Positions 16,132-40,944 of a stretch of 64,000 nucleotides of DNA are shown here, piece after piece. Source of the DNA: Halobaculum magnesiiphilum (GTDB lineage: Archaea; Halobacteriota; Halobacteria; Halobacteriales; Haloferacaceae); assembly GCF_019823105.1 (NCBI RefSeq), contig NZ_CP081960.1, forward strand, positions 372,001 to 436,000, written 5' to 3'. The notes beneath the pieces were generated by a model that saw only the letters and a program-made list of their open reading frames with translations, was not told the DNA's origin and searched no databases. The position numbers were made by a program, and so were the translations under genes. Within the stretch, counting starts at the first letter, position 1. The number at the start of each line of letters is the position of its first letter.

Positions 16132-16776
16132 GTGAAGCACCGGCAAAGGGTCGAACACTTCCGCACAGACCTGCTTAACTGGGCGGAGGACAACCTGCGG
16201 TCATTCCCTTGGCGGGACACGACCGACCCGTACGAGGTCCTGGTCGCAGAGATCCTTCTCCAGAAGACAGCTGCTGAGAAGGTGGCACCCATCTATATCG
16301 AACTTCTCGCAACCTATCCCTCACTAAACGATCTCGCGGAGGCGGACCGGGAGCGTCTGGGGGACATCATCTATTCGCTCGGATTCCAGAACCAGCGGAG
16401 TGACGCCCTGATCAAGATTGGCCAAGAACTTCGAGACTCCGGTGTACCCAGCGAGTTCCAGGACCTATTGGAGCTTCCATACGTCGGCCGGTACGCAGCG
16501 AACGCAACTCTGTGCTTCGCATATGACGAGCCTCAACCGATTGTCGACGCGAACGTGGTCCGAGTTTACAACCGAATCTTCGACAAAGATTTCGACTACC
16601 GTGATGAGGATACATGGTCATTCGCTGCCGCCGTCCTCCCAGCGGAGGATGCTCGCAGGTTCAATCTCGCGATTTTGGACTTCGCCGCCATGGTCTGCCA
16701 TCCGAAGGTCCCAGACTGCGACAAGTGCTTCTTCACCGATTCCTGCCACTACTACCAGGCGAACAAGACCGGTTAG
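16132..16776 (+). CDS. Mig-type G/T mismatch DNA glycosylase (HhH-GPD, 4Fe-4S)
   Basis: 214 residues starting at GTG. HhH-GPD fold: helix-hairpin-helix LLELPYVGRYAANATLCFAY with Tyr121 where endonuclease III has Lys and MutY has Ser, then IVDANVVRVYNRIF with catalytic Asp139. Tyr plus VDAN is the signature of Mig thymine-DNA glycosylase of Methanothermobacter, whose pair is Tyr126/Asp144. The iron-sulphur cluster is Cys189-x6-Cys196-x2-Cys199-x5-Cys205. No MutY C-terminal domain. It would remove T from G/T mispairs caused by deamination of 5-methylcytosine, fitting the cytosine-5 methyltransferase 0.5 kb downstream. Confidence 0.88.
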   Translation: MKHRQRVEHFRTDLLNWAEDNLRSFPWRDTTDPYEVLVAEILLQKTAAEKVAPIYIELLATYPSLNDLAEADRERLGDIIYSLGFQNQRSDALIKIGQELRDSGVPSEFQDLLELPYVGRYAANATLCFAYDEPQPIVDANVVRVYNRIFDKDFDYRDEDTWSFAAAVLPAEDARRFNLAILDFAAMVCHPKVPDCDKCFFTDSCHYYQANKTG

Positions 16777-17146
16777 GAATCCACGTTCGCCGCTGGTTCC
16801 TTGACCTCCTCAAGCACAGCCCACTCCAGACCGGCAGCGAGGAACATGTACAGGTAGTCGTACCAGAACTCGAAATTCACGTCCTGCTCCGCATACTCCA
16901 TCAGGTGCTCGTTGGCTGCTCCCTTGTAGAACGCGTCTGGGTAGGCGTCGTCCAACTCCTGCAGTTCGTTAAGGACGTCGCTGGTCGTGTGCTTCAACAG
17001 GTACGAATTGTGGGTCAGGTTGTGCACGACGTCGTCGATATCCTTCTCTGTTCGTCTGCCCGTTTCTGCGCCAGCCGATCGAACTCCCGGACCTTCTCCT
17101 CCATCGAATCGGCGGTCATAACCGGCTCCCATTCGTCGTTGTACAT
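16773..17146 (-). pseudogene. Small acidic protein, apparently frameshifted
   Basis: A start at 17146 gives MYNDEWEPVMTADSMEEKVREFDRLAQKRADEQ, and the other frame then continues EKDIDDVVHNLTHNSYLLKHTTSDVLNELQEL...WYDYLYMFLAAGLEWAVLEE. Both halves have haloarchaeal composition while the alternatives do not, so one shift near 17050 is likely. About 125 residues, helical, no family recognised. It converges with the glycosylase (stops overlap by four bases) and lies between it and the methyltransferase. Confidence 0.5.
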
Positions 17147-17267
17147 CGTTACTTCCGTCTTGCTTTGCCGGTAACATGAATGTTCGCAGCCCAGGGTCTA
17201 TTCCACGGGTACGGGCCGCTGTGATTACCGGATTGATGCAAGACGGGCGTCAGACAGCGTCACCAAA

Positions 17268-17300
17268 CGTTTTATTATAAATCTAGTTCACGTTTGCCAC
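17268..17300 (+). promoter_or_regulatory. TATA promoter of methyltransferase operon
   Basis: ACGTTTTATTATAAAT is centred about 25 bases before the ATG at 17301, the spacing of a leaderless haloarchaeal transcript. It would drive the methyltransferase and the overlapping GHKL gene together. Confidence 0.65.
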
Positions 17301-18449
17301 ATGGATATTGCCGGCGTTGATTTGTTCTGCGGCGTCGGAGGGTTGACTCACGGGTTTGAGAGGGCTGGAATCCCTGTTGCTGCCGGAATTGACGTCGACC
17401 CCGACTGCCGGTATCCCTACGAGGAAAACAACGATGCAAAGTTCGTAGAGGCTGACGTCTCCGAGATGTCCAGCGAGGATGTTGCCGACCTGTTCCCGGA
17501 CGGCAGCTTCAAAATCCTCGCAGGCTGCGCGCCCTGCCAGCCGTTTTCGAACTACAACAATGGCGTGGATAGCTCGGAGATGGATGACTGGGCGTTACTC
17601 ACGGAATTCGGTCGCCTGGTACAGGATATCGAACCGGACATCGTGGCAATGGAGAACGTGCAGGAGATCCGCAATCACCGGGTGTACTCCGACTTCATAG
17701 ACACCCTGTTCAAAGCCGGATACGACATCTCCATCAACAAGGTGGACTGCGAGAAATACGGCGTCCCCCAATCCCGGCGGCGGCTCCTGGTGCTTGCCTC
17801 CAAGCACAGCGACATCAGCCTGATTGATCCGACGCATACCGGGTACAACGGCCACGTCACCGTTGAGGAGACGATCGGGAACGGCAAGCTGAATCCGATA
17901 GAAGCAGGCGAGGCCGATGACGAAGATCCGCTGCACCGGACGCAGACCTTATCCGAAATCAACCTGGAACGAATCCGGCAATCTACGCCCGGCGGGACAT
18001 GGCGGGACTGGGATGAGGAACTGATTCTGGACTGCCACAAGAAAGACAGCGGCAGTTCGTACGACAGCGTGTACGGCCGCATGGAATGGAAAGGCACCGC
18101 ACCCACCATCACCACGCAGTTCTACGGCTACGGTAGCGGCCGTTTCGGCCACCCGGAGCAGGACCGCGCGATCTCCCTCCGCGAGGGAGCAATGCTGCAG
18201 ACGTTTCCCAAAGACTATTCCTTCGTCGAGGAAGAAACAGACGAGATATCATTCAAGCAGATCGGGCGGTTCGTCGGCAACGCAGTACCCGTTCGGATTG
18301 CCGAAGTGGTCGGTGAAAGCATAAATCAACACCTCAACAATATCAATGTCACAGACAGAATCGAAACCCAAGACCGAGGAGGAAACGCCGTACGAGATGT
18401 CGCTCAGCCTCAACGTACTGAATCATCTGGGGCTGAACCTCTACAGTAA
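17301..18449 (+). CDS. DNA (cytosine-5) methyltransferase, DrmMII-like
   Basis: 382 residues with all conserved motifs in order: I GVDLFCGVGGLTHGF (residues 5-19), IV GCAPCQPFS with nucleophile Cys79, VI MENV (117-120), VIII QSRRR (157-161), a target-recognition region about 190-290, and X VGNAVPV near 330. It transfers a methyl group from S-adenosylmethionine to C5 of cytosine and should mark host DNA. DISARM class 2 uses such an enzyme (DrmMII), and drmA/B/C/E-like genes lie 12 kb downstream. The C-terminal 35 codons overlap the next gene by 104 bases, an unusually long overlap that ties the two genes together. Confidence 0.93.
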   Translation: MDIAGVDLFCGVGGLTHGFERAGIPVAAGIDVDPDCRYPYEENNDAKFVEADVSEMSSEDVADLFPDGSFKILAGCAPCQPFSNYNNGVDSSEMDDWALLTEFGRLVQDIEPDIVAMENVQEIRNHRVYSDFIDTLFKAGYDISINKVDCEKYGVPQSRRRLLVLASKHSDISLIDPTHTGYNGHVTVEETIGNGKLNPIEAGEADDEDPLHRTQTLSEINLERIRQSTPGGTWRDWDEELILDCHKKDSGSSYDSVYGRMEWKGTAPTITTQFYGYGSGRFGHPEQDRAISLREGAMLQTFPKDYSFVEEETDEISFKQIGRFVGNAVPVRIAEVVGESINQHLNNINVTDRIETQDRGGNAVRDVAQPQRTESSGAEPLQ

Positions 18450-20379
18450 CGTACCCGCCGTTCTCTCAGAGGCTGTTGCGAACGCATGGGACGCCGACGC
18501 CGAGAACGTTGACGTCTCGATCTATCCCGAGGAGGAACGCATCGAGATCGTTGACGACGGCCACGGCATGGACCTGTACGACGTGAACAATCGGTATCTC
18601 CGCGTCGGATACCGGCGGCGGGAGGACGAGGACCGGCCGAACCGAACACCGGAGCACAACCGGCCGGTTATGGGACGGAAGGGCATCGGGAAGCTCTCCC
18701 TGTTCTCCATCGCCGAGACCGTAGAGGTGTACACGACGAAGGACGGGGAGCAGCACGCCTTCCGGATGATTGTCGACGAGATCAAGGAGGCCATCGGGGA
18801 AGAAGAACCGGGGAACGATGCGATGCAGCCTCAGAGCTACGTGCCGACCCAGATCGATGACTTCCCCGACGACCACAATCAAGGGACCAAAATCGTTCTC
18901 AAGAACCTGAAGAAACGGGTTCACACAGCAGAAAGCGCCCTGCGGAAGCGTCTGGCCCGACGGTTCAGTATTCTCGGGTCGGAGTACGATTTCACCGTCC
19001 GGGTGAATGGCGAACCTATCGATATCACCGACCGCGACTACTTCCACAAAATCCAATTTCTCTGGACATTCGGTGATGACAGGTACGTCGACTACTGTCG
19101 CGACGCGAAGCTTGAGGAACACGAACACCGGTCCTCAACCACCGAGAGTGGGTACGAGGTGGAGGGTTGGATCGGGACGGTTGAGAAGCCGCGTGACCTC
19201 GTTGAGGATATCCCCGGCACTGGCTCGGAGACGGATGACCTGAACAAAATCTCGTTGATGGTCCGCGGGAAGATGGCGAAGGCCGATCTGATGGAGGATT
19301 TCAACGATAGCCGGATGGTCACGAAGTACCTCGTGGGCGAGATCCACGCCGACTTCCTGGACTACGACGACGAGGAGGACATCGCTACCTCGAACCGGGA
19401 GGACATGGTCAAGGACGATCCCCGGTACCAGGAACTGCTCGAATTCATCCGCGGCGAACTCAACCACATCGCGAACCGGTGGGGGCACCTCCGTAATGAG
19501 CAGGGTTCGGAAGAAGCGAGGCAGATCGGTGTAATCGATATGTGGTACGAAAGCCTGTCACCGGATAACCGGGAGCAGGCAAAGAAGCTGTTCGGGAAGA
19601 TCAACCAGATGGCGGTCAACGACGAGAACGATCGGAAGGAACTGTTCAAGTACGGCGTCCTCGCGTTTGAGAACCTGAAGTACAAGCAGAACCTGGAGCA
19701 ACTGGACTCCGCCTCGACCGAGGACGCCGGGAAGGTGGCCCGTATCTTGGAAGACCTGGAGGATATCGAATCCACCCGATTCCACCAGACCGTAACTCAG
19801 CGTCTTCGCGTGATCGAGAAACTGCAGCAGAAACTGGAGGACAACACCCTGGAGACAGTGCTGCAGGAACATATCGGCGAGCATCCGTGGCTATTGGATC
19901 CGTCGTGGGAACGTACCGCGGGCACCGATCTGATGGAGGACTGGGTTCGGATCGACTTCACCGAAGAAGAGGACGAGGCAGCCGGCCGGCTGGATTTGAA
20001 ACACATCCGCACCGCCGGGAAGCACGTCATTATCGACCTCAAGCGGCCAGACTACAAGCCTACCCAGTCCGAGCTCGAGGAGCACGCCGAACAGTACCGG
20101 GATACGATCAGTTCACTGCTCAGCAGGAGCGGCCGGGCGGACGAACCGGTGGAGGTCGTGTTCGTCGTCGGTACCCAGCCGGTAGACGAGGAAACCGAGG
20201 AACCGGTCCGTCACCCGAACAAATCGCTGGACGTGGACAACGCTCGGGTTCAGCTGTACGAGAACTTGCTCAAATCGTCCCGCGAGGCCTACGAGGAGTA
20301 CATTCAGAACCGGCCGGAGGCCGGCCGTGTGTCCCGGCTGCTTGACGAAATCGATGCAGGGGATACGCTGAACGACTGA
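18346..20379 (+). CDS. GHKL (MORC/MutL-like) ATPase fused to PD-(D/E)XK nuclease-like domain
   Basis: 677 residues. GHKL motifs: N-box SEAVANAWDADA (Glu42, Asn46, Asp49), G1 VDDGHGM (69-75), G2 MGRKGIGKLSLFS (109-121), followed by a transducer-like domain. Near residue 505 a nuclease-like domain begins with EHIGEHPWLLDPSWERT, then GRLDLKHI...KHVIIDLKRPDY, in which Asp and DxK have PD-(D/E)XK spacing as in Shedu/NucS-like enzymes. Prokaryotic MORC relatives in restriction loci are known; the ATPase probably clamps DNA and licenses cutting. It is translationally coupled to the methyltransferase by a 104-base overlap and converges on 20393. Confidence 0.85.
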   Translation: MSQTESKPKTEEETPYEMSLSLNVLNHLGLNLYSNVPAVLSEAVANAWDADAENVDVSIYPEEERIEIVDDGHGMDLYDVNNRYLRVGYRRREDEDRPNRTPEHNRPVMGRKGIGKLSLFSIAETVEVYTTKDGEQHAFRMIVDEIKEAIGEEEPGNDAMQPQSYVPTQIDDFPDDHNQGTKIVLKNLKKRVHTAESALRKRLARRFSILGSEYDFTVRVNGEPIDITDRDYFHKIQFLWTFGDDRYVDYCRDAKLEEHEHRSSTTESGYEVEGWIGTVEKPRDLVEDIPGTGSETDDLNKISLMVRGKMAKADLMEDFNDSRMVTKYLVGEIHADFLDYDDEEDIATSNREDMVKDDPRYQELLEFIRGELNHIANRWGHLRNEQGSEEARQIGVIDMWYESLSPDNREQAKKLFGKINQMAVNDENDRKELFKYGVLAFENLKYKQNLEQLDSASTEDAGKVARILEDLEDIESTRFHQTVTQRLRVIEKLQQKLEDNTLETVLQEHIGEHPWLLDPSWERTAGTDLMEDWVRIDFTEEEDEAAGRLDLKHIRTAGKHVIIDLKRPDYKPTQSELEEHAEQYRDTISSLLSRSGRADEPVEVVFVVGTQPVDEETEEPVRHPNKSLDVDNARVQLYENLLKSSREAYEEYIQNRPEAGRVSRLLDEIDAGDTLND

Positions 20380-20392
20380 AAAATCCCGAGTT

Positions 20393-20962
20393 TCACTCGG
20401 TGGCGTATCCGGGCCAGTCGGAATTGGTTTCGACCGTGAGCGAGCTCTCGCAGCACGGTGACTGGTACTCCTCGGGATTCTGCGTCCGGTCAGATGCCTT
20501 GTACAGCCCGTCGATCATCGCGCCACAATAGCTGCAATACAGCTGGTATCGATACGGGACGGGGTCTTCACCACGGATCGGTGCGTCCACCGATTCGGCG
20601 ACGTCCTGGAACTCGGGACCGTGCGCGGTCACGCCGTCCTCGTACTCTTCGTTGATGACGACATGGACGAGTTCGTGGCGGATGATGCCTTTCACCCGGT
20701 CCCATCCCCAGGACCGGTAACCGGGATAGGAGAGGACGATGGTGTGCTCCGGCGGGTCATCCAGTAGCGTTTCGCAGTACGCGCCTGCACGGCAAAGCTG
20801 GGGTGAGACCTTCCAGTCCACCCGGGCCAGCTCAACGTCGGCAATCGGACTGTTCTGATACGTTTCCTGGACTTCACAGGCGTAGCGTTCGGCTGTTTCC
20901 GCCAGTTCGGTACGGCTCAAGTTGTCGGAATCGTCCAGTACGACAGATTTTGTTATACTCAT
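20393..20962 (-). CDS. SprT-like zinc metalloprotease
   Basis: 189 residues. HELVH at 96-100 is the zinc-protease motif, with His114 as the probable third ligand (DGVTAHGPEF). A C-terminal zinc ribbon follows (Cys143, Cys146, Cys170, Cys171). SprT/Spartan proteins digest proteins crosslinked or trapped on DNA; in this locus it might remove stalled defence complexes, which is inference. AAAGGGG a few bases before the ATG is a good Shine-Dalgarno sequence. Last gene of the minus-strand operon, 45 bases behind its neighbour, whose expression it probably shares. Confidence 0.85.
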   Translation of the reverse strand: MSITKSVVLDDSDNLSRTELAETAERYACEVQETYQNSPIADVELARVDWKVSPQLCRAGAYCETLLDDPPEHTIVLSYPGYRSWGWDRVKGIIRHELVHVVINEEYEDGVTAHGPEFQDVAESVDAPIRGEDPVPYRYQLYCSYCGAMIDGLYKASDRTQNPEEYQSPCCESSLTVETNSDWPGYATE

Positions 20963-21007
20963 TATAATCCCCTTTCTAGTCGGTTTTCACCGGGGAATGG
21001 ACGCATT

Positions 21008-21718
21008 CTAGCTCAGATCGTCCTCGACTTCCGACAGGATGTCTTCGATGAGGGTGCGGATCTCGTCTTCGGACATCCCTTCGAGCTGGACCTTGCTCAG
21101 AGTTTCGCGGAACCGGAGCGTTGTCTGTTCGATGACGGTCGAACTGGCCTCCGCCTCCAGCAGCACCTCAGCGCACGCGACGGCCGCAGGCTTGTGCCGG
21201 GCGAACCACCGGTCGAAGATCTTGTTGGCCAGGGTCTGATTGGCGAGGACGTCCTCCGTAAGCGAGTAGTCCCGTTCCCCGTCACCGTCCATATCGTAGG
21301 TGAGTTCGGATATCCACCATAGCCGGTGCAGTGCGTTGGAGTAGATGTCCGTCCCGGCCTTGAGGAACTTTTCACGCATCGCTGTCTCGGTGGTGTACGG
21401 CCACCGGTACCGGACGAAATCGGGGAACTCGACGACGGTCAGGTAGTGCCAAACGCCGGGATCGCCTGCTTGCCGACGGGTGATGTCGACGAGTTGGTGG
21501 ACGTTAGGACCGGCAGCGCTGTCGATCATCGGGTCGTGCTCGTCGAAGTTGTTCATCACGTAATCAAGCACTCGGCGGAGTTCTTCCAGATCGCCGGTTG
21601 CGTTGACGGGTTCGATGTACGGTGAAAGGTCGTCGACCGTCAGGTCCTCGTCTCCGCGCAGGAATTCCTCGCTGATGTGGACGTGGCCGGACTGGTCGAG
21701 GCGTTTGAGTTGCGTCAT
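21008..21718 (-). CDS. Uncharacterised protein of GHKL operon (DUF6339-like?)
   Basis: 236 residues from the ATG at 21718, which overlaps the upstream stop (ATGA); longer in-frame starts run through the upstream gene and are rejected. Aromatic motifs RYRWPYTTETAMREKFLKAG and NALHRLWWISELTYD are distinctive and recall DUF6339, though I cannot confirm that. The C-terminus is a helical acidic tail (MSEDEIRTLIEDILSEVEDD). Found between a GHKL partner and a protease, so probably a structural subunit of the same complex. Confidence 0.75.
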   Translation of the reverse strand: MTQLKRLDQSGHVHISEEFLRGDEDLTVDDLSPYIEPVNATGDLEELRRVLDYVMNNFDEHDPMIDSAAGPNVHQLVDITRRQAGDPGVWHYLTVVEFPDFVRYRWPYTTETAMREKFLKAGTDIYSNALHRLWWISELTYDMDGDGERDYSLTEDVLANQTLANKIFDRWFARHKPAAVACAEVLLEAEASSTVIEQTTLRFRETLSKVQLEGMSEDEIRTLIEDILSEVEDDLS

Positions 21719-22725
21719 TTCAATCCCTCCTCGAGAAGGTTGATCAGTTGTTCTGGTGGTTCGGTCTTCTGTTGGACGGCGTCGTCGATGTGCTGCATCA
21801 GCGTCACCAGCTGATCCTCGTCGTTCACGTCCTCTCGCAGGTTCATCGCCGCCTCCTCTACGTCGGCGCCGTCGTACAGTTTGTCGTGGTACAGGTCGAG
21901 GACGTCGTCCTGCCAGTCGTACCGGGTTTCGCCGTCCTGGTTGATGTCGGTCGCTGTCCGGATGATCAGCTGCGGCCATACCGAGGCCTCTACTAGGTCG
22001 TAGATCGCGTCTCGCATCCGGGCGTCTGGCCCTGTCGACCCTCTGCTCTCCATCACGTTGATGATGGCGCTGTGGTCGCCGTTCAGGTAGAGCGTGGGTC
22101 GTTCGGCGTCGCTCATATCGAGGTAGTGCAGGTGGTCGCCGGACGGCAATTCGTTCATCTCGCTGAAGTTCTCGATGTGCGGCCGTAGCAGGCCATCCGG
22201 CAGGTCGGTGTCGTCGATCTCCAGCACCCACTCGTCGCCGCTGGCGAGACGAGCACCAATGTCGGTAGCGTACCGGCCGTCGACCTCACTCCGGTCGTCT
22301 GCCCGGACGAGATATGGCTGGAGTTCGACGCCTCCACGGATCATCGCGCGGTTCAGATCGAACTCGAAGGGGTACTCGTCGGGTGGGACAGAGTCCTCTT
22401 TGACGACCTCACGGTCGCGGAGGATGGTCTGCTGGCATCGGATAGCGACGAACAGGTTGCCGGGCGGGTCATCCTGCTCGTCGTCCGGGAAAACGTAGTT
22501 GACGAGGTCCTCGGAGACGTCGATGGTTCCCTTGACCGTCGCTTGGTCCCACTCGGTCAGGCTGGTAAGTTGGATCAAGCGGCTGCTCGACCGGATATCG
22601 ACCTCGCGGTCGTTGTCCAGCGTGCAGTCCGTTACCGTGAACTCCAACCCGGTTTCGCGGTACGGGTGCGGGAGGGCGGTTGTGCGAAGTCGCTGGGTCC
22701 GGGTTTCTATCTCTTCCGTCGACAT
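21715..22725 (-). CDS. Uncharacterised protein coupled to GHKL ATPase
   Basis: 336 residues; the ATG overlaps the stop of the GHKL gene and the stop overlaps the next ATG. The first 250 residues look beta-rich (ATVKGTIDVSEDLVNYVFP, then GGVELQPYLVR), the last 90 helical. The middle part YLDMSDAERPTLYLNGDHSA is a possible catalytic or binding loop but matches nothing I know. The overlaps on both sides imply fixed stoichiometry with the ATPase. Confidence 0.75.
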   Translation of the reverse strand: MSTEEIETRTQRLRTTALPHPYRETGLEFTVTDCTLDNDREVDIRSSSRLIQLTSLTEWDQATVKGTIDVSEDLVNYVFPDDEQDDPPGNLFVAIRCQQTILRDREVVKEDSVPPDEYPFEFDLNRAMIRGGVELQPYLVRADDRSEVDGRYATDIGARLASGDEWVLEIDDTDLPDGLLRPHIENFSEMNELPSGDHLHYLDMSDAERPTLYLNGDHSAIINVMESRGSTGPDARMRDAIYDLVEASVWPQLIIRTATDINQDGETRYDWQDDVLDLYHDKLYDGADVEEAAMNLREDVNDEDQLVTLMQHIDDAVQQKTEPPEQLINLLEEGLK

Positions 22726-25827: not shown

Positions 25828-26253
25828 CTATGGATTCTGTAGAAGACTAGTCTCATCAGCGGCCCGGAGGATGGCGGTGAAATCGTCACGGCTGATCTCG
25901 TAAATACTGTTCTGCGGGACGCCGCGAAGTCCATCACGGTCCCGTAAGAACGAAATCTTGTCCTTGATCTCTCGTACCTGCACAGGCGGATCGAACGCGA
26001 CGTACGTGTCGATGTGTGCATTATAGCCGGTCAGATTCCCGCCGTCCTGACCGCCGGCGAGGTCATTGGTTTCTATGTCGCCGATGACGACGGCCCCGAA
26101 TAGGACGTACTCACCCGGCCAGTAGTACACGAACCAGTCGTCTGCGGACAGTTTCCTGTGCCCGGGGACGTTGCTCCGATAGTTGTAGACCTCGCCTATC
26201 ACGTCGCTATATCCCTGCGAATCCTTATGCTGGTTCAGCCCAAAATACGCCAT
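25828..26253 (-). CDS. EVE/PUA-like domain protein, predicted modified-base reader
   Basis: 141 residues. VYNYRSNVPGHRKLSADDWFVYYW then GEYVLFGAVVIGDIE is the pattern of EVE/PUA-like modules in McrB-type and HNH restriction proteins (a Y-x-YP-like strand, a strand ending in YY, then F-G-hydrophobic-I). Such domains bind flipped modified bases such as 5-methylcytosine. It begins four bases behind the methyltransferase-like gene, so the two form a unit. The assignment is by pattern, not by search. Confidence 0.6.
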   Translation of the reverse strand: MAYFGLNQHKDSQGYSDVIGEVYNYRSNVPGHRKLSADDWFVYYWPGEYVLFGAVVIGDIETNDLAGGQDGGNLTGYNAHIDTYVAFDPPVQVREIKDKISFLRDRDGLRGVPQNSIYEISRDDFTAILRAADETSLLQNP

Positions 26254-26256
26254 CGG

Positions 26257-27210: not shown

Positions 27211-27391
27211 TCATCAATTCTTAGTCTGAGGGAATAAAGGTCGTTATGTGGACTGCCCTAGCTCGCATAATGACTGCTGCTCTTAGATGGTGTTGAAATA
27301 CCCCCTCTTTGGCATCGCCAGCAATCGTCTGATTCCGAACAGGAGCTTTATCAGGGTCTGAAAGATAGTATGTTTTGAATTACCGATTGGC
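27211..27391. promoter_or_regulatory. Divergent promoter region: GHKL operon and STAND gene
   Basis: 181 bases between two outward genes. For the minus-strand operon CTTTATT lies near 27233, about 25 bases before its GTG. For the STAND gene, TATGTTTTGAATTACC just before the ATG is AT-rich. Co-location implies coordinated control of both units. Confidence 0.45.
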
Positions 27392-29752: not shown

Positions 29753-29774
29753 CAATTCGATTGTACCCCCTGTT

Positions 29775-30749: not shown

Positions 30750-30769
30750 GAGAGAGGGGTTATCACCGG

Positions 30770-32849: not shown

Positions 32850-35800
32850 TCATTCGTCGTCCCCCCGTGATTGGTGGAGTCCGGTGATTACCTGGTTGGT
32901 TTTTCCACCGATCCCGACCAGGATCTGCTCGTCGATATCACGGAGACTCCGCATCGGCTTGCGAGCGTCTTCATCCCGTTCGAGCAGGCCAGACAGGAAG
33001 TTCGACTTGTTGTTGTCGGCCTTCTGCTCGTACTCGTCCAGCCGGTTCTCGTCCTTGAACAGGGCCTCCCAGACCTTCTCGAACTCCGTTCCGATCTTCC
33101 GCTCGTAGATCTCGATAGCGCTCGTGTCAGCGAGCAACGGATCGCGGTCAGCGTCCGGTGAGGGAGCGAGGCCGTACGCTTCCCGGACGAACGTGTACAG
33201 GCTTTCGTAGGTGAGGACGCCGGCGTCGCTGGCCTCGTCCAGTCCCTCGCCCATGTAAAGCCGGGGTGAATCGATGTCGGGCTCGGCGTAGTAGTCAACC
33301 CACTGCAGCAAGGTGCTCGTGACGATTCCGGGAAGGGAGCATTCGATCGCGTACTCCGCCCACCGTTCGAGCGGGGTGGCTTCGACCAGCAGGTCCTGGT
33401 AGGCCTGGTGGTGCTGGAACCGACGGTAGTACGACCGGTCCCGTGACCGGAGCGGGTAGTGGAGCATAAACACTGTTCCCGGCCACTTCCGTCCGACCCG
33501 GGAGTAGGTCTGGATGTACTCGGCGGTCTCCCGTGGCAGGCCGAAGAAGCTGATGAAGTTCAGCACGGGCTGGTCGACGCCGTGGCTGATCATCGACGTC
33601 GCGATGAGCATCCGGATGTCGTCCGGACCGGGCCGGTGGAACGTGTCCGGGTCCAGTGCCGACATCACCTGCTGCACCGTGTCGAGCGTCGTCTCCCCCG
33701 TCATCAATTGGCCCTCAATCCTGTCGTAGTCCTCCATGTCGTCAGCGAGGTGCTGGTTGATCATGGTCCGGAGGACACGCATCATGAGGTCGGTGTTGTC
33801 CTTCGAATGGTGGTACGACACCTGGACCTCGTAGTCGTCCATGACGTCCCCGAGCACCTCCTCGCGGTCGTCCGGGTCGCTCGGGAGGGCCGCATCGGAT
33901 AGGTCGAACGGATCGTCGGCCGCGGCACGTTGCACGGCATCGTAGAGGTCGTCCGGGTTACGGCGGAAGTCCTGGACGATCCGCGCCCACTCCTCGTGGA
34001 CGCGTTCGATCGCGTACGTCCGGCTCACCGTTCGGGGGATGGCCCCGACCATCTGTCGCTGCGTCCGCTTTGGATGGGCGTACGCGTAGAACGATTGTCG
34101 GAGGCGCGGTCCGTCGCTGGGGAACTGTATCGTCTCCCGCTGGTAGAGCGCTCGGACCTGGTTCTCCGCGCCCTGGATCGTTGCCGTTGCGGCGACGACC
34201 TTGGTTTGCCAGCCCGGGGCGATGCGGTCGTAGTATGCTTCCAGCAGGGTCTCGTAGTGGGAGTCGAACGCACCGAACTCCTCCCGGAGAAGGTGCAGCT
34301 CGTCCTGGATCAACAACGATGGCGGGTCGGTTGATTCGACCTCCGTCCAGTCGTCTTCGTCGCATTGGCCTTCCGTGGAAAGTGCGGAGCTCTGGACGGT
34401 GCACTCCGATTCGCCGGAGTAGCCGTGCTTCGCACAGCGGATCTTGGCCTGACCGAACAGGGTACGCATCCGCCGCTGCATCCCGACGATCGAGATCTTG
34501 TCGATGGTGGAGACGACGAAGGTCGGGGCGAACCGGTACACCTCGCGGTCGGTGAGGTAGACCGGAAGCACGTCTTCGTCGCAGTCCGGGTCGGTGCACC
34601 GGTGAACGATCCGGCCCTGAACCGGGTCGCCGTCGACGATAACCGATTTCTCACCGCAGAATGGGCACTCCTCGAGGTGCAGCATCTCCTCCTTGTAGTC
34701 CTCGTCGTACTGGGCGAGTTCGACGTAGTTGTTACCGTCGTCGTAGAGGGCGTTCGGGGTGTTGCCCTTCCCGACGAAGTAGCCGACGCTGAACTCTTCA
34801 CCCTCGCTGGTTACCGGGTGGTCGCGCCGGATCAGCTCTGCTTTGGCGAGCAGCCCGGTGATGCGTTCGAGCTGCTCCAATGAGAGGAACCGCAGCGGGA
34901 ACTTGGTGAACGCCGTCATCCCGAAGTGTTTCCCGCGCAGCCGGTCGTGGAACGCGGTGAACACCACGAGCCCAAAGTACGCCTCGGTCTTGCCCCCGCC
35001 GGTCGGGAAGTAGATGACGTCGGCAGCGTCCAGATAGTGGTCGAAGTCGACGTCGGGCTCCAAGTCCTCGAGCGGTACCCGTTGCTCCCAGTCGGTTGCC
35101 CGCTCGTCCTGCGGGCTGATCGGTGGCGGGCCGCCCGATGTCTTCGCCTGCGCCACCATGTCCGGGACGGCCATGACGATGAACACGATCTGAAACGTCC
35201 GCCAGCGGTCGTATCCGAGGTCGGCGAACGCCTGGTTCATCATCGTGAACGCTTCGTACGCTTGCTCGTTGTCGCGGAGCAGGTCGATCCCTGTCTCGAA
35301 CCGTTCGCGCTCGCGTTCGAAGTCGTCGATGGCTTCCCGGAAGGAGCTCTGCGCACCGGAGGGCTTCTTGGACACGACCTCGTCTTCGATCGCCTCGTAA
35401 TCCTCTTGGGCCTCCTCCATGGCGGACGCGATATCGGTGAGCGTGTTGAACACCTCCTCGCGGCCGTTGTTCCCGGCCAGTGCGTCGAACGGGGCAGCGA
35501 TTTCCTCGGGATTCCGGGAGAGGTACCGGGCCTGGTGGTACGTGGGAACCGTTCGCGTCTGAACACCGATGGCAGGTGCGCCGACGACGGAGTGACCGCC
35601 CTCCGGATAGACCGGATCGACAGCGCAGTTCTCGCCGACGCCGTATATGGTTCCGTCGTACTGGTATTCGTCCTCGATCTTCTCGGACTCGAACCCGATG
35701 AGCGTAGGCGTATCCCTGTCGTCGCGGTGGAGCGTTGCCTCCACACCGACATCGAACAGGGTCGCTCGCCATGCTTCGAACTCGGGGTCGGTTGCTTCGT

Positions 35801-36815
35801 CGTAGTCCTCTCCCTGGGTGTTGACCATTCGGACGACGACCGTGGTGTAGTTGTCGCCGTCGTCGCGTCGGGCTTCCAGTTCGAGCCGCGCGTCCCAGAG
35901 CGGGTCCAGTTCCTCACCAGAGAACGTTTCGTCGAGGTACGTCTGGAACGTGTCCTCGTCCTCCAGTCGGGGAACGGGGATGGCGTTGGCTTCAGATGCG
36001 GCAAGGCCGCTTGCACGTTCCCGGAACCGGTTGTCGATGGCTCTTGCTTGGGCTTTGGCGTCGCGGATGGTATCTGTCAGTGGAACGTGGCGAGGAGAAT
36101 CCGACTCCACGAGGTTCTGGATTTCGGCCACGCTCAGTGCGAGCGTATCGAACTCGAACGGGATCCGTTCGTACACGCGTACGAGTTCTTGCGTGTCGCT
36201 GGGACCGTCGCTGTCCGGCGATGCAGCAGTAGTTCCGCCGTCAGCTACTGCTTCGCCCTCGTCATCAGTCTCCGGTTCGTCAGGCTTCTCCTCTTCTATC
36301 CGTTGACCGCCACGACCGTCGTCAACGGCCTCGAAGAGAACATCGGCGTTGTCCTCCGCGTTCGAGTGCGTCCGCTGTTCGTCCAATGTGGGGAAGCGGC
36401 GCTGGTAGCCTTTCGCCTGCGGGTCGAACTGGATAGTGACGTCCTCGGGCAGGTCGGTCGGGATGCGGAAGCGGACGCCGATGGTGAACGGTGCGACGTC
36501 CTCAGCGAATTCCTTGAAAGCGTCGTCCTCGGCCTGTGCTTCCCGATACGCGTACTGGCTGGAGAGCGCACCGCCGAACAGGTGTTTGCTGGGCTGGCTT
36601 CCGAACAGAGTCTCGGTGTCCTCACCGCGGCCGGTCAACTTCTCGATCAGCCGCGTGGTGATCGCGTCGTTGACGAATTGGTGACGGATGTATGACTCTG
36701 CGAAGTCTCGTTCCTCCGCGTCGTAGTCCACGTGCGGGTCGTCGTATGCGTCGTCCGGCGGTCGAGTGAATGCCGGTGTATCCCGCGGTGGTATTGGTCG
36801 TCTGTTCCCCGCCAT
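32850..36815 (-). CDS. drmA: DrmA: DISARM helicase
   Basis: 1321 residues. A long N-terminal domain precedes an SF2 core: Walker A VIYFPTGGGKTEAY near 600-612, Walker B LLIQDELHLL near 832-841, and the C-terminal RecA-like half with ATSMISHGVDQPVLNFISFF near 1070 and TYSRVGRKWPG. Between them is a zinc knuckle (CPFCG...CTDPDCD) and CAKHGYSGESEC. This matches DrmA/MrfA-type helicases that pair with DUF1998 proteins. A TATA-like GTTTAAGT about 37 bases upstream on the minus strand suggests its own promoter. Confidence 0.92.
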   Translation of the reverse strand: MAGNRRPIPPRDTPAFTRPPDDAYDDPHVDYDAEERDFAESYIRHQFVNDAITTRLIEKLTGRGEDTETLFGSQPSKHLFGGALSSQYAYREAQAEDDAFKEFAEDVAPFTIGVRFRIPTDLPEDVTIQFDPQAKGYQRRFPTLDEQRTHSNAEDNADVLFEAVDDGRGGQRIEEEKPDEPETDDEGEAVADGGTTAASPDSDGPSDTQELVRVYERIPFEFDTLALSVAEIQNLVESDSPRHVPLTDTIRDAKAQARAIDNRFRERASGLAASEANAIPVPRLEDEDTFQTYLDETFSGEELDPLWDARLELEARRDDGDNYTTVVVRMVNTQGEDYDEATDPEFEAWRATLFDVGVEATLHRDDRDTPTLIGFESEKIEDEYQYDGTIYGVGENCAVDPVYPEGGHSVVGAPAIGVQTRTVPTYHQARYLSRNPEEIAAPFDALAGNNGREEVFNTLTDIASAMEEAQEDYEAIEDEVVSKKPSGAQSSFREAIDDFERERERFETGIDLLRDNEQAYEAFTMMNQAFADLGYDRWRTFQIVFIVMAVPDMVAQAKTSGGPPPISPQDERATDWEQRVPLEDLEPDVDFDHYLDAADVIYFPTGGGKTEAYFGLVVFTAFHDRLRGKHFGMTAFTKFPLRFLSLEQLERITGLLAKAELIRRDHPVTSEGEEFSVGYFVGKGNTPNALYDDGNNYVELAQYDEDYKEEMLHLEECPFCGEKSVIVDGDPVQGRIVHRCTDPDCDEDVLPVYLTDREVYRFAPTFVVSTIDKISIVGMQRRMRTLFGQAKIRCAKHGYSGESECTVQSSALSTEGQCDEDDWTEVESTDPPSLLIQDELHLLREEFGAFDSHYETLLEAYYDRIAPGWQTKVVAATATIQGAENQVRALYQRETIQFPSDGPRLRQSFYAYAHPKRTQRQMVGAIPRTVSRTYAIERVHEEWARIVQDFRRNPDDLYDAVQRAAADDPFDLSDAALPSDPDDREEVLGDVMDDYEVQVSYHHSKDNTDLMMRVLRTMINQHLADDMEDYDRIEGQLMTGETTLDTVQQVMSALDPDTFHRPGPDDIRMLIATSMISHGVDQPVLNFISFFGLPRETAEYIQTYSRVGRKWPGTVFMLHYPLRSRDRSYYRRFQHHQAYQDLLVEATPLERWAEYAIECSLPGIVTSTLLQWVDYYAEPDIDSPRLYMGEGLDEASDAGVLTYESLYTFVREAYGLAPSPDADRDPLLADTSAIEIYERKIGTEFEKVWEALFKDENRLDEYEQKADNNKSNFLSGLLERDEDARKPMRSLRDIDEQILVGIGGKTNQVITGLHQSRGDDE

Positions 36816-36901
36816 CTAAATACGTGACTACAGACTAAAACGTGCGACTTAAACCTAGCCACAGTTAGAACTCATCGATGGATGGCGGTTTCGAGGGGGG
36901 T

Positions 36902-39523
36902 TCAGTCGGGTCGATGCCGCCACCGCCCGACGTAGCTTACAGGCCGTTCGACATCGTCGACGACCGTTTGGATCGTGTGCTGTTCGACGAGCGCCCGGCC
37001 TTCGTGGTCGGTCGGGTCGAAGTCCGAGAGGCGGACGTCGAGGTCGTCATGGAGGACGATGTCTTCGTTGGGGTCGTGGTCGGCCAGGGCGTCGGCTGCC
37101 TGCCGTTTGAGCTGCTTGATCACCTCTCGTTTGATCTTCCGGATCTTCCAGTTGGCGTCCCAGACGTCGTTGATGTGTTCGGCCACCTCCTCCATGTCGT
37201 ACGCGTCGACGATCGCGCGGAGGTTGGCTTTCGACCGGGGCATGTTCACCTCGCCGGTGTACCAGCCCTCGAAGGTGCCCTCGGAGGAGGCCGTTGCACC
37301 GGCGGCTTCCACTTTCTCTCTGAACTCGTGGAGCGAGTCACCGCTATCCTCGAGTTCGATGTCGAGTTGCTGGTGCCACATGTGGGCGCGGACAAAGATA
37401 TCGATCTCGCCCATGTTCATCAGGTGGTCTTCCACCGCCTGCCGGACTGCCTGGTAGTCCCGGACGAGGACGACGCGTTCACCGCTCTTCACGTCGCTAA
37501 GCTTCTTTTCTACGGTCGTTCCTTCGCCCATGCGGACGACCTCGACCGTGTCGGATGGTTCGCCGGCGTAGGCATAGCCGTCGTCGGTTTGTGCTTCGAC
37601 GAGGCCATCGATGCGGCGTGTCTCGTGGGGACCGCTACGTCCACCGCCGCCTCCACCGATCGGTGGAATACCGCCACCACCACCGCCGCCACCGTTGCCA
37701 CCGCTGCTGCCGAAGTTTTCGACTGCCGAGCGGTGTTCACCGACCGTGTCACGGACGAGGTCGTCCAGGGATTCGTCACTGTCCCCGCCGACGATCGTGT
37801 ACCGGTCGACAGGTGAGTCGGTATCATCGTCGTCCTCGCCGCCGAACACGACCTCGGGCGTATCGAATTCCGCGACCTCCTCTGGATCAGGGATGTCCAG
37901 GGAAACACCCTCGTACGGCCCGACTTGCCGGGTCGGGGAATACTCCCCGTCGTCGGACTTGCCTCCACTGTTGAGCGAGGGAACAGCTCCGTCCAATGCG
38001 GTGTTGCGCCGTACCGACTCCGTGTCGGTCGTGTCCGGGTCGGTGACTTCGACCGGTGTGAAATCGGCGATCGCCTCGTTGAGTGAGCGGACCTGGTAGT
38101 GCAGTAACCCGAGTTCGTGCGGGTACGCGAGGATGGTTAGACGCTTCGCGTGTGGTGTCCGGAGGATCCACAGGTCACCGCGCCGCGGCGGACCGTACAG
38201 GATGAGCTCGTCGGCGACAGGTGCTTGGGCGAGCGTCGCCGGGCTGTGAATGTCCACCCGGCTTTTCGCCCGGCCCCAGAGACTGCCCCGGTTCAACTGG
38301 AGGTCGGCGCGGACAGCTTTCCGGGCTGGCTCGTCCGGTGCCACGATGTGCAGCGTCTGCTCCTCGTTGTCGACGATCGACTGGATGGCCCGCAGCACCG
38401 AGCCGCGCTTCCAGTCGCCCAAGTTGTCTTCGTCGTTGACGGCGTCCCGGATGTCTTCCAGTCTCCGGACACCCTTCCGGAGGGAATTGGCGATGGCGCC
38501 TGCGTCGCCAGTGAGTCCATCGGCGACCGCTTCCAATTGGCCGATCCGGACGTCGTGCGGTTTGGCGCGGCCGTGACCGACCCGGTAGTTCCGACTGTAT
38601 TCGGGGTCGGCGATCAGTCGGGAGTACCCGTTGATAGCCCGTTCGACGCCTTTTACTGCGGTGACGGTGTCGTCATCCCCGATCTTGTACGCGGATTCTT
38701 TCAGTGAGTCGTGCCTGTTCCAGGCGGCCGATAGGGCTTCGGCGACATCGCCGGAGGGGAGGATTTGCAGGTCGAACGTCACGCCCTGTGCCCGTTGCTG
38801 GAGGAGTTCCTGGTCGCGGAGCGTGGTTTCGGGGACGATGCCGGCACCGTCCGATGCCGCGGACGTGTCCACGCCTCCATGGCCGTTGTCGTACATGTCG
38901 GCTATCGCTGACGGTGTCCATCCCCACGTCGTATCGACCTCGTCGAGAACCTGGTCGGCGACCGGGCTGGTCGGGTCGCGGCAGAAGTACACGACGCTCG
39001 CGATATCGTGTTCCTCTCGCCACTCGGTGAATTCGGTCCAGCGATCCCAGTCGAAGGTGACCGTGCTGTCGTAGATGACGGTGTGCACCCGGTCGGCGTC
39101 TTCACCCTGTGGGAGGCGGGTGCTGTACTTGGCGTAGAGGAACTGGGGGTAGCCGTCCTGGTCGGTGTAGAGCTCGGTTTTCTGCGCCAGGTCGCCTCCT
39201 GCTTTGACGCTGGCCAGTGTCCAGTGCGTTTCGCTGTAGATGAGGTGAGGGCCGCGAAGCCCGACGTCCTTGTATCGTCGGCGGACCCCGGCGTTCGACG
39301 ACATCACCATGACGCTGGTGTTCTGGGGTGAGGTGAACAGGGCGGTCAACGCATGGTACTCGAGGTAGTCCGGGTGGAGCGTGGGGACGAGGATGCACGC
39401 ATCGACTTCCTGTTGAGTGGCGTTGCCGACGATGCGGGCGTGCGTGTACTCGGTTTCGGGTACCTCGTAGTCTGCACCGTCGATTTCCAGGTCGGGAGGG
39501 AGCTGCGTTTTACCCCGGGGCAT
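36902..39523 (-). CDS. drmE: DrmE-like protein of class 2 DISARM
   Basis: 873 residues from ATG 39523 (MPRGKTQLPPDLEIDGADYE); a longer frame would start upstream of the promoter TTTTTAATG at about 39590 and is rejected. The C-terminal half before the linker reads LYTLHIVAPDE...ARKAVRADLQ, then DELILYGPPRRGDLWILRTP, like the second RecA-like half of a helicase without a P-loop. A glycine/proline linker near residue 600 contains two polyglycine runs. Size, lack of recognisable enzyme motifs and position directly before drmA fit DrmE; identity is inferred from context as much as from sequence. Confidence 0.65.
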   Translation of the reverse strand: MPRGKTQLPPDLEIDGADYEVPETEYTHARIVGNATQQEVDACILVPTLHPDYLEYHALTALFTSPQNTSVMVMSSNAGVRRRYKDVGLRGPHLIYSETHWTLASVKAGGDLAQKTELYTDQDGYPQFLYAKYSTRLPQGEDADRVHTVIYDSTVTFDWDRWTEFTEWREEHDIASVVYFCRDPTSPVADQVLDEVDTTWGWTPSAIADMYDNGHGGVDTSAASDGAGIVPETTLRDQELLQQRAQGVTFDLQILPSGDVAEALSAAWNRHDSLKESAYKIGDDDTVTAVKGVERAINGYSRLIADPEYSRNYRVGHGRAKPHDVRIGQLEAVADGLTGDAGAIANSLRKGVRRLEDIRDAVNDEDNLGDWKRGSVLRAIQSIVDNEEQTLHIVAPDEPARKAVRADLQLNRGSLWGRAKSRVDIHSPATLAQAPVADELILYGPPRRGDLWILRTPHAKRLTILAYPHELGLLHYQVRSLNEAIADFTPVEVTDPDTTDTESVRRNTALDGAVPSLNSGGKSDDGEYSPTRQVGPYEGVSLDIPDPEEVAEFDTPEVVFGGEDDDDTDSPVDRYTIVGGDSDESLDDLVRDTVGEHRSAVENFGSSGGNGGGGGGGGIPPIGGGGGGRSGPHETRRIDGLVEAQTDDGYAYAGEPSDTVEVVRMGEGTTVEKKLSDVKSGERVVLVRDYQAVRQAVEDHLMNMGEIDIFVRAHMWHQQLDIELEDSGDSLHEFREKVEAAGATASSEGTFEGWYTGEVNMPRSKANLRAIVDAYDMEEVAEHINDVWDANWKIRKIKREVIKQLKRQAADALADHDPNEDIVLHDDLDVRLSDFDPTDHEGRALVEQHTIQTVVDDVERPVSYVGRWRHRPD

Positions 39524-39583
39524 TGTTCGGACCGGCTCCACAGTTCCGGTTGGTTGTGGTGCTACCGTAGTAAATTGACAGCG

Positions 39584-39745
39584 GACATTAAAAATGCTAG
39601 CCTCGGGTAAATGAGCGAATTGAACGTGTTCGGCCCGGGGCCATCCGGTCGTGGTGGAACGTGGACGGTATCGGTCTGGGCCGATTGACACGTATCGGCC
39701 CCCCAACAGCGACGGCGGTTGAGCGAACCGTTATTTACCAACGGT
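39584..39745. promoter_or_regulatory. Bidirectional promoter of drmE block and endonuclease gene
   Basis: On the minus strand TTTTTAATG at about 39586-39594 is a TATA box for the DISARM block. On the plus strand GTTATTTACC lies about 25 bases before ATG 39760 and is bracketed by the perfect inverted repeat ACCGTT (39727-39732) / AACGGT (39740-39745), a likely operator over the TATA box. Confidence 0.5.
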
Positions 39746-39759
39746 AGCGAACTGCAGCT

Positions 39760-40944
39760 ATGGATAAACTCGAGTGGGCCGTCGACACCGTCGACGGAAC
39801 AACCTTCGAGAAGATTGCCGGCGAGGTACTGCGGAACGAAGGCTACGATGTCCACGAAAGCGGCGTTATCGGGACCGACGGCGGATGGGATGCACGGATC
39901 GAGATCAACGGCCGGAAGGGAATCGGCCACGCCAGCGTCGACAACAACTGCCGCGGGAAGCTGCGGGACGATGCCGAGAGCGTGGAGGAACTTGAGGACG
40001 AACAGGACGAGTCCTTCGCCCTCCTGGTGTTCATCACGAACCAGCGCGTCACCGGGCAGCAGGAACTGGACATGGAGACGGAGATCGAAGAAGAGTACGG
40101 ATGGGATCTGAAAATCCTGCACCGGCGGCATATCATCGGGATTACCGGTCACGAACGACCGGACCTCGCGGAGCGGCACTTCGGATTCAACCCGAAGCGG
40201 AACGACGACCACTTGGACCAGATCATCGATATACGGGACGAACGCCTTGACCTGATTTCCAACCGGGAAGGCGTGGCCAGCGACTTGGAGGACGGCCCGA
40301 CAGCGGTCGTCAACCTGATTCCGAACGGCGTTTTCAGCGGGAACTACGTCCAACGATCCGACGATCTCCCCGGACTTCCCCGGATGGGCAAGCTGAACGT
40401 CCATCCCGGCACCGAGACCGTGGGGAAAGGGAAGCTGAACGCGGGCGGACGGATGGGACAGCCGTACAAGTCCTACACGTACCTCCGGAAGGACGGACTG
40501 TACGAAGCGGTCGATACGTGGGTATTCCGAGAGGACGAGGGCGTCGGTCTTCAGTTAAATAATTACCGTGATACCGACAAGTCGCTGGACTGCAAGGCGG
40601 GCATCGCGGTGCAGGCCGGGATCCGCGCATTGAAGATGATGGGTGTGACCGGAACCGTGTTCTGCTTCATCAGCCTGCTGGACGCACAGGGTGCGACCAT
40701 CGCGTACGAAACTCGGATATCGGGACCGGCGGTGCAGCAGCCGTTGCGGACGGACCGGTACACGACCGACCTGGCTGAAATCCCGTTGGCCGAGGCCGAC
40801 GTCACCGACTCGATACGCAACCCGCTCACGGAGATTTGGCAGGAACTGGGCTGGAACGTCAACCTCCATTACGACGAAGATGGGAACTGGATGGGACCGA
40901 CCGTCCGGTTCGGGGATATTGTCCAGTTCCCTTCTGGGGGCTGA
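39760..40944 (+). CDS. Mrr-like restriction endonuclease (PD-(D/E)XK), C-terminal domain unknown
   Basis: 394 residues. The N-terminus FEKIAGEVLRNEGYDVHESG then TDGGWDARIEINGRKGIGHA matches Mrr-type restriction folds: an early helix with Glu, GG-x-D (Asp44) and a following strand with Glu48. The usual QxK is replaced by HAS, with a lysine only later (RGKL), so the active site may have moved. Residues 190-394 form a beta-rich domain (GKGKLNAGGRMGQPYKSYTYL). It is divergent from the DISARM block and probably its accessory nuclease or a separate system. Confidence 0.65.
   Translation: MDKLEWAVDTVDGTTFEKIAGEVLRNEGYDVHESGVIGTDGGWDARIEINGRKGIGHASVDNNCRGKLRDDAESVEELEDEQDESFALLVFITNQRVTGQQELDMETEIEEEYGWDLKILHRRHIIGITGHERPDLAERHFGFNPKRNDDHLDQIIDIRDERLDLISNREGVASDLEDGPTAVVNLIPNGVFSGNYVQRSDDLPGLPRMGKLNVHPGTETVGKGKLNAGGRMGQPYKSYTYLRKDGLYEAVDTWVFREDEGVGLQLNNYRDTDKSLDCKAGIAVQAGIRALKMMGVTGTVFCFISLLDAQGATIAYETRISGPAVQQPLRTDRYTTDLAEIPLAEADVTDSIRNPLTEIWQELGWNVNLHYDEDGNWMGPTVRFGDIVQFPSGG

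Follow-up and report, generated by a model that had tools for sequence, protein, structure and literature searches.

Does one cytosine methylation mark serve several defence modules that stand side by side on a haloarchaeal replicon, or have independent defence systems come to lie next to each other? This question is raised by a stretch of 64,000 nucleotides from Halobaculum magnesiiphilum (NZ_CP081960.1, positions 372,001 to 436,000; hereafter the window), in which DISARM genes, a cytosine-5 (C5) methyltransferase, two GHKL ATPases and a STAND gene are gathered between positions 16132 and 40944. The window is part of the 487-kb contig G000:C3 in a haloarchaeal genome of 3.73 Mb, and the compound locus is probably situated on an extrachromosomal replicon. 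The original prediction, made from the letters of the window, saw a combined system in which one methyl mark may license self for two or three effector modules. We find three separable modules in this span, i.e. a restriction-modification set, an enlarged operon of the PADLOC candidate system PDC-M33 (hereafter M33) and the genes drmE-A-B-C, and most of this arrangement recurs in other genomes, which points to more than chance. It is somewhat more probable than its negation that all three modules rely on 5-methylcytosine (m5C) as self mark, and the most likely reading of the locus is a modular hub that recurs and is based on one such mark. The features of the span are, in their order along the window:

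16132 to 16776, plus strand: Mig-like T:G mismatch glycosylase of the HhH-GPD family (structure 1KEA, Pfam, PADLOC)
16773 to 17177, minus strand: open reading frame (ORF) of 134 amino acids (aa), tail to tail with the glycosylase gene
17301 to 18449, plus strand: C5-cytosine methyltransferase, probable partner of an HgiDII/BbrUII-type nuclease (Pfam PF00145, 183.9 bits; tree)
18346 to 20379, plus strand: GHKL ATPase with a C-terminal PD-(D/E)XK-like region (by eye), HgiDII/BbrUII-family restriction enzyme (NCBIfam NF050001, 800.8 bits, 1e-240, cut-off 550; PADLOC REase_II 9.6e-89)
20393 to 20962, minus strand: SprT-like metalloprotease, last gene of the operon (Pfam SprT-like 1.7e-9, HELVH motif)
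21008 to 21718, minus strand: M33C, DUF6339 protein, all-helical in its model (Pfam DUF6339 1.6e-21 and PADLOC PDC-M33C 7e-20, both on the longer ORF 21008-22231)
21715 to 22725, minus strand: M2, third member of the GHKL trio and positional counterpart of PDC-M33B (profile, model)
22725 to 24587, minus strand: M33A, GHKL ATPase, paraMORC2-like (PADLOC PDC-M33A, PDLC04582, 1.1e-30)
24584 to 25669, minus strand: M4, uncharacterised (cluster of 4)
25828 to 26253, minus strand: M5, EVE-like, candidate modified-base reader (sub-threshold Pfam EVE)
26257 to 27210, minus strand: M6, putative C5-methyltransferase-like protein, marker of M33 arrays (motif alignment)
27392 to 29752, plus strand: STAND-like P-loop/TPR gene, probable later insertion (Walker A GKKGAGKS, TPR repeats)
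29775 to 30749, minus strand: drmC, PLD nuclease (PADLOC DrmC 4.3e-44, Pfam PLDc_2 1.2e-18, HxK(x4)D motif)
30770 to 32758, minus strand: drmB (PADLOC DrmB 9.5e-130)
32850 to 36815, minus strand: drmA, YprA-family helicase (PADLOC DrmA E 0, 1084 bits)
36902 to 39706, minus strand: drmE (PADLOC DrmE 6.5e-91, Pfam DrmE_C 7.2e-10)
39760 to 40944, plus strand: Mrr-type restriction endonuclease at the edge (Pfam Mrr_cat 5e-4)

The four drm genes all lie on the minus strand in the order E-A-B-C and match the class 2 DISARM core, as had been proposed. No drmMII gene adjoins them. The closest C5-methyltransferase stands 11.3 kb from drmC, beside the GHKL-nuclease fusion and close to the 12 kb of the original prediction. 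Since it is remote and belongs to the clade of restriction and M33 methyltransferases, the window contains a DISARM core without an adjacent modification gene of its own.

The same 391 haloarchaeal genomes (denoted by G numbers) were searched with four queries, DrmA, M33A, M6 and the GHKL-nuclease. ORFs of related loci were picked by a simple script based on length and composition, and locus-wide profile scans used all ORFs of at least 120 or at least 100 aa. DrmA was found in 62 genomes, comprising 20 with the close type (at least 43% identity to the window DrmA), 32 with other strong types and 10 weak ones (best E above 1e-10), which were left out of the control set. Among the 32 other strong genomes, mapping covered G115, together with the main set, and 20 of the other 31, while the M33 status of all 32 was taken from the class-wide M33A search. 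M33 and DrmA occur together in 14 genomes, 13 with the close type and G115 with another one, and in all 14 the distance between drm and M33 genes is 0.7-5.2 kb. The count tests (Fisher) ignore relatedness, and seven G373-like loci are near copies; read with this limit, M33 is present in 13/20 close-DrmA genomes versus 16/371 others (p 6e-12), and in 13/20 versus one of the 32 other strong types (p 1.4e-6), with p 1.9e-5 for all DrmA. This single occurrence makes generic clustering in islands a poor explanation of the linkage. The M33 label needs 5 changes, compared to a mean of 12.9 in shuffles, on a 41-row tree of DrmA to which GX21 and a Haloquadratum metagenome-assembled genome were added and from which G238 and G212 are absent. 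Hence, the label is clustered, yet it was gained or lost several times.

The surroundings of the close DrmA type vary. A drmE match was detected in 14 of the 20 genomes, and a different large protein, c15 (1144-1396 aa), stands instead in the other six, adjoining drmA at the place of drmE in G037, G101, G155, G215, G238 and G355. Its faint similarity to HEAT repeats and DrmE indicates that c15 may be an alternative DrmE; a second, shorter copy exists elsewhere in G215. Next to drmC in G101, G155 and G355 is c32, of which the G101 member was scanned and carries pentapeptide repeats and an ion-channel domain, possibly a membrane effector. Two smaller proteins, c17 (about 335 aa) and c19 (about 254 aa), are located between drmC and the trio in G008, G058, G264, G281, G295 and G373; c17 is also found in G079, a DISARM locus without M33, and the G008 members of both had no Pfam match.

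Whose methyltransferase is it, then, and may its mark be shared? In a tree of 41 sequences, from which the G140 and G319 methyltransferases were left out, the window enzyme groups (98/87) with the three sampled methyltransferases that adjoin a GHKL-nuclease. Together with the M33-linked enzymes these make up a group of 35 (100/99), except that the G013 stretch has a second methyltransferase, 2.8 kb past its trio, which clusters with G357. Of the five drmC-linked methyltransferases, four are grouped separately (97/95), and the fifth, from G357, is less closely related. The target-recognition region of the window enzyme is 68-70% identical to the nuclease-linked, 50-60% to the M33-linked (outlier G013_23, 28%), 36-38% to four drmC-linked enzymes and 30% to the fifth. 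On the basis of this grouping and these identities it is best read as partner of the restriction enzyme and not as DrmMII. In the close DrmA type without M33, a C5-methyltransferase is located 0.1-2.2 kb from a drm gene in 5/7 loci; the other two, G238 (truncated at the contig end) and G355, hold a c27-cluster gene, whose G155 member matches the MADS protein mad2 (1.1e-12) and, weakly, type II methyltransferase models. The 20 mapped loci of other strong DrmA types contain a C5-methyltransferase in 15 cases and M33 genes in none. In contrast, none of the 14 loci with both DISARM and M33 has a C5-methyltransferase within 2.5 kb of a drm gene; those that were found, the nearest at 5.0-11.3 kb, are all members of the group of 35. 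The difference between 0/14 and 5/7 gives p 0.001, or 9e-5 without G238 and G355, both values being uncorrected for relatedness. Such complementarity is what sharing of the mark would produce. On average, 2.6 of 4 phylogenetic contrasts agree with this expectation, and none ever opposes it. Taken together, the recurrent linkage and the lack of a drm-adjacent methyltransferase in the combined loci make an m5C mark shared between DISARM and M33 plausible, and to this extent the predicted single mark for several effectors is supported. Furthermore, DrmAB ATPase is reduced on m5C DNA according to the available part of PMC9142583.

The restriction-modification set begins with a glycosylase that the original prediction had not named, although it stands at the start of the span. 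Its best match among solved structures is 1KEA, a possible G-T mismatch repair enzyme (E 3.7e-41), followed by a MutY-type enzyme (3.9e-29); it also matches Pfam HhH-GPD (1.5e-15) and the PADLOC type II nicking enzyme PDLC03398 (1.7e-42). The alignment with 1KEA places Ala/Leu/Tyr where MutY has Val45/Gln182/Ser120. These positions distinguish Mig.MthI from MutY, with the reservation, given in the accessible passages of PMC2714593, that the Tyr is also found in a MutY and alone is not sufficient. The 134-aa ORF has relatives in G194, Haloterrigena sp. H1 and Haloplanus GX21 (tblastn), and no family match in the Pfam and PADLOC scans. The methyltransferase gene overlaps that of the GHKL-nuclease, and its target is probably GTCGAC, judging from the HgiDII/BbrUII homologues. 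HVO_C0040 of Haloferax volcanii is a homologue of M.HgiDII (m5C at GTCGAC) and M.BbrUII, as stated in the part of PMC5867850 at hand. The nuclease matched 75 genomes at E<=0.001, only 6 of which hold close homologues; five of these are in M33 loci, i.e. in 5 of 29 M33 genomes, so that it is an occasional partner, which does not support the combined system in this point. The sixth, G250, has only the methyltransferase and nuclease among the sought genes in the fetched stretch.

The seven-gene operon with a second GHKL ATPase was likewise found as predicted, running from 27210 to 20393 on the minus strand in the order M6, M5, M4, M33A, M2, M33C and the SprT-like gene, with gaps of 3, 158, -4, -1, -4 and 45 bases. 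By its profile matches and gene positions it is an enlarged copy of candidate PDC-M33 (GHKL ATPase, M2, DUF6339) with M6 added. M33A had no Pfam match; its E36, N40, D43, G119, G151, G154 and the ExxxH pair E432/H436 are invariant in 28/28 aligned sequences, the extended motif ExxxHxxW is kept in 60/60, and only one of 50,697 phage records contained a relative, which is partial. M2 was modelled as a beta-sandwich with a helical domain (predicted local distance difference test, pLDDT, 86.6; predicted template modelling score 0.57). No PADLOC model matched it, and its tie to PDC-M33B runs via a profile built here that also reaches the bacterial proteins at the same position, in Synechococcus (3.3e-21) and in Deinococcus (9.1e-5), the latter matching PDC-M33B with 7.2e-28. 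Naming M2 by its fold was abandoned: the N-terminal sandwich gave its best Foldseek matches at low TM-scores, and the best VIA-align Z of 8.4 over 99 residues stands among many unrelated sandwiches. Similarly, M33C is confidently predicted to be helical (AlphaFold2, pLDDT 95.6), found no Foldseek match in the PDB at E<=0.001 and was not named by fold either, since its best VIA-align Z of 6.3 over 63 residues is within the background of helical models. As far as models can tell, the structure matches of M2 and M33C show neither a function nor a new fold.

Of the additional genes, M4 has relatives in G266, G274 and G298, likewise inside M33 arrays, with a very weak ParD-like N-terminus (0.027). 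M5 matches Pfam EVE at 0.019 in the window and 3.9e-4 in its GX21 relative, both under the curated cut-off, and the SprT-like gene recurs only in GX21 among the mapped loci. M6 carries the motifs FAD.G, HPxC, IEN.P and G.MFG, invariant in a 14-sequence alignment inspected by eye. At E<=0.001 it matched 40 genomes; 21 of the 391 are below 1e-130, and all 21 are in M33 loci. Weaker matches (1e-70 to 1e-47) occur in G146, G203, G260 and G367, all without an M33A match, and a second one in G184. Searches of solved structures with profiles of M6, M2, M33C and the GHKL protein returned no convincing relative. A GIY-YIG nuclease suspected by eye in c10, a 508-aa protein of M33 loci, had no such Pfam match. 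The protein c33, GmrSD/Orf5-like in its scanned G188 member, is found repeatedly in M33 loci (G188, G243, G330 and G155), next to a trio in 4/4.

M33A was detected in 29/391 haloarchaeal genomes, and typical M33 loci have two to four trios of GHKL, M2 and DUF6339 genes. The GHKL tree (fasttree, with long branches) sorts many copies by position: a clade of 23 rows is mostly divergent from a C5-methyltransferase gene, and one of 16 rows, to which the window copy belongs, is for the most part located downstream of M6 and c10. In 27/29 M33 genomes the distance between a C5-methyltransferase and an M33 gene is at most 0.64 kb, in the window it is 2.6 kb; G261 had none near M33 on its 8.5-kb contig. 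The loci of 23/29 M33 genomes also contain a match to the Mig profile. In bacteria, a Synechococcus elongatus plasmid has the trio and a methyltransferase, a Deinococcus locus has a methyltransferase and Vsr with the trio, and in Arthrobacter dcm, vsr and a restriction nuclease are followed by the trio and a Shedu nuclease gene. M33A and M33C were confirmed by profile in all three, the M2/M33B protein in all three by either profile, and in Deinococcus and Arthrobacter the Vsr gene takes the place of Mig beside the methyltransferase. In Lactococcus, a relative of M33A has none of the other sought genes near it, in a stretch cut off by the record end. Judging from these neighbourhoods, M33 seems to be a system of its own that is associated with m5C.

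Two relatives combine the three modules. The plasmid of Haloplanus sp. GX21 (NZ_CP147875.1, L115) carries the array of the window without the STAND gene, with identities to the window of 93-98% for the drm proteins, 89-94% for the trio and 92% for nuclease and methyltransferase. From drmE through SprT it forms one co-directional, closely packed block, in which about 0.1 kb separates drmC from M6. M6, M5 and M4 are only 64-78% identical between flanks of about 90%, hence this stretch looks exchangeable. IS6-family transposase genes at 6737-7372 and 24273-24908 bracket the drmE-to-SprT block in the manner of a composite transposon. In Halarchaeum acidiphilum (L110) the genes for the methyltransferase, the nuclease, Mig and M6 are likewise found with the trio and the drm genes. 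This is an independent instance of the three-module combination, at a much lower identity to the window (59-61% for nuclease and methyltransferase). The STAND NTPase with its Walker A and TPR repeats exists as predicted, but it is incidental: window positions 27259-29771 are cleanly missing from the collinear GX21 locus, no tblastn match was obtained in 20 mapped DrmA loci, and the GC content of 0.495 differs from 0.56-0.64 in the other genes of the span. It was rejected as a system component and is probably an AT-rich passenger that was inserted later.

We propose that the C5-methyltransferase would mark host DNA, probably at GTCGAC, and that the Mig-like glycosylase, whose activity is predicted, would remove T:G mismatches arising from m5C deamination. 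The GHKL-nuclease would cut unmethylated incoming DNA, which would also be open to DrmA-DrmB, with an ATPase repressed by m5C in the Serratia system. In addition, the M33 GHKL protein, M2 and the DUF6339 protein could form an ATP-driven clamp on unmethylated DNA, giving M33 a presumed antiviral role, and DISARM without its own DrmMII would borrow methylation from the neighbouring module. A bolder version, which is speculative and rather doubtful, envisages a hub with interchangeable effectors: one m5C mark, guarded by mismatch repair (Mig in archaea, Vsr in bacteria), would license self for GHKL/M2/DUF6339 clamps that deliver unmethylated DNA to a plugged-in nuclease module (DISARM, GHKL-PD-(D/E)XK, a GmrSD-type one or c10), and haloarchaeal class 2 DISARM would repeatedly have lost its own methyltransferase after joining.

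However, it must be mentioned that several points weigh against a common mark for coupled modules. M33 occurs without DrmA in 15/29 genomes and the close DrmA type without M33 in 7/20. The linkage takes only 5 changes on the DrmA tree, and the 4-5 independent contrasts are too few for significance, the methyltransferase pattern across them reaching p 0.25 at best. Among PADLOC models, DrmMII is the one that the window methyltransferase matches best (7.2e-102); as a displaced DrmMII it was rejected nonetheless, as the tree groups it with restriction partners. GTCGAC is not avoided in the window (73 sites seen vs 72.5 expected), and avoidance was thus dropped as a sign of restriction. Family searches with M33A, M2 and M33C pointed to no nuclease, M6 could supply a mark of its own, and GX21 has interrupted reading frames in M6, M4 and M33A next to readable drmE-A-B-C, so that, barring errors in the assembly, DISARM may be able to persist in the absence of M33. 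Given the separate occurrence of M33 and the few phylogenetic contrasts, a single obligate system of DISARM and M33 is not supported. The neighbourhoods tabulated over the 391 genomes bear out a recurrent pairing of DISARM and M33. A DrmMII-type gene adjacent to another copy of the DISARM block was found only in a more distant relative, G194 (DrmA 59% identical), and in neither of the closer relatives G345 (88%) and GX21 (96%). DISARM and the GHKL operon are recurrent neighbours for which a common m5C mark is plausible, but as interchangeable modules.

Among other explanations, the one that survives best is that independent systems became clustered in a defence island on a mobile replicon through shared transfer routes and are not functionally coupled, which is a serious though on balance unlikely possibility. 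The occurrence of modules apart, the STAND insertion between them, the IS6 genes flanking the GX21 block, the few changes on the DrmA tree and the further defence-like genes in the window flanks would all fit it; against it stand the near absence of M33 from other strong DrmA types (1/32), the missing drm-adjacent C5-methyltransferase in 14/14 linked loci and the tight, co-directional packing in GX21. It is improbable that M6 serves as methyltransferase of DISARM in place of DrmMII while the methyltransferase-Mig-nuclease set serves only itself. M6 is directly downstream of drmC in GX21 and in the inferred window layout before the STAND insertion, and one ORF away in G215; moreover, its methyltransferase-like motifs are kept in 14/14 sequences, and PF00145 gave sub-threshold matches to two of its four distant relatives. 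However, it is present in 11 M33 loci without DISARM and missing from 4/14 with both, which indicates that M6 follows M33, its frame is interrupted in GX21, and it had no Pfam match and a probability of 0.2% in the hhalign comparison with C5-methyltransferases, on which ground M6 was rejected as proven methyltransferase. One obligate composite system, in which the GHKL trio would load or gate DrmAB on unmethylated DNA, is very improbable, for the recurrent adjacency, the GX21 packing and the GHKL-helicase-methylase-Vsr neighbourhoods published in the available sections of PMC2292703 are outweighed by each module being found without the other and by the interrupted M33A and M6 frames next to readable drm genes.

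At the right edge, the Mrr-type gene reaches 20.6 bits with Pfam Mrr_cat, just below the cut-off of 21, and has a 91% identical copy beside the array in GX21. Beyond the span, an ORF at 14870-15394 resembles by eye the C-terminal part of Orc1/Cdc6, the upstream portion seemingly being in another frame; in GX21 an orc1/cdc6 gene is annotated close to the copy of the array. Positions 43166-48632 encode an AddAB-like pair, a PD-(D/E)XK protein of 859 aa and, after it, a UvrD helicase of 964 aa that also has PD-(D/E)XK. Two overlapping genes at 50526-52150 resemble, by eye only, an AbiE-type toxin-antitoxin pair, and adjoining TnpA-like and TnpB-like transposon genes (by eye) lie at 56406-58057.

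If DISARM indeed takes the self mark of a neighbour, system-by-system catalogues miss the interdependence of defences, and seemingly incomplete DISARM cores that lack drmMII may be functional. For the candidate PDC-M33 this suggests a concrete mode of action, a GHKL clamp licensed by m5C and partnered by deamination repair, which could be examined in genetically tractable haloarchaea such as Haloferax volcanii.

Class 2 DISARM, following Ofir and colleagues, reportedly consists of the five genes drmE, drmA, drmB, drmC and drmMII. The window has four of them in the same E-A-B-C order, and close-type relatives without M33 keep a C5-methyltransferase within 2.2 kb of drmC in 5/7 cases; it differs by the lack of an adjacent drmMII, its only nearby C5-methyltransferase being 11.3 kb away and in the restriction-partner group. 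With HgiDII/BbrUII type II restriction-modification it shares a C5-methyltransferase overlapping a GHKL-nuclease above the NCBIfam cut-off, and it differs by the Mig-like glycosylase alongside and by the company of M33 in 5/6 sampled haloarchaeal genomes with a close homologue. Mig.MthI (1KEA) is the closest solved structure of this glycosylase by sequence and by three recognition-pocket residues, from which its activity is predicted. GHKL ATPases in restriction neighbourhoods with cytosine methylases, Vsr and helicases are already described in the accessible sections of Iyer, Abhiman and Aravind 2008 (PMC2292703), where ExxxH in the C-terminal part of the S5 domain is the mark of paraMORC2. 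The window M33A agrees with this type in its GHKL motifs, the conserved ExxxH and the cytosine methylase/Vsr neighbourhoods, which by this motif makes it a putative paraMORC2, and differs in its company, as DISARM, Mig and a DUF6339 partner go unmentioned in those sections. The terms PDC-M33 and DUF6339 were not found in the literature searched, and a link of DISARM with M33 appeared in none of the titles and abstract starts on DISARM and haloarchaea or GHKL/paraMORC defence among the matches listed. The accessible text of PMC12458937 does not contain the words GHKL, MutL or DrmMII, and the passages seen of PMC12988326 discuss PDC candidates in archaea without M33. Like PDC-M33 with its PADLOC candidates A, B and C, the window has GHKL, M33B-position and DUF6339 genes in one operon; unlike it, the haloarchaeal versions are often enlarged with M6, M5, M4 or c10, often comprise two to four trios and are linked to DISARM in 14/29 genomes.

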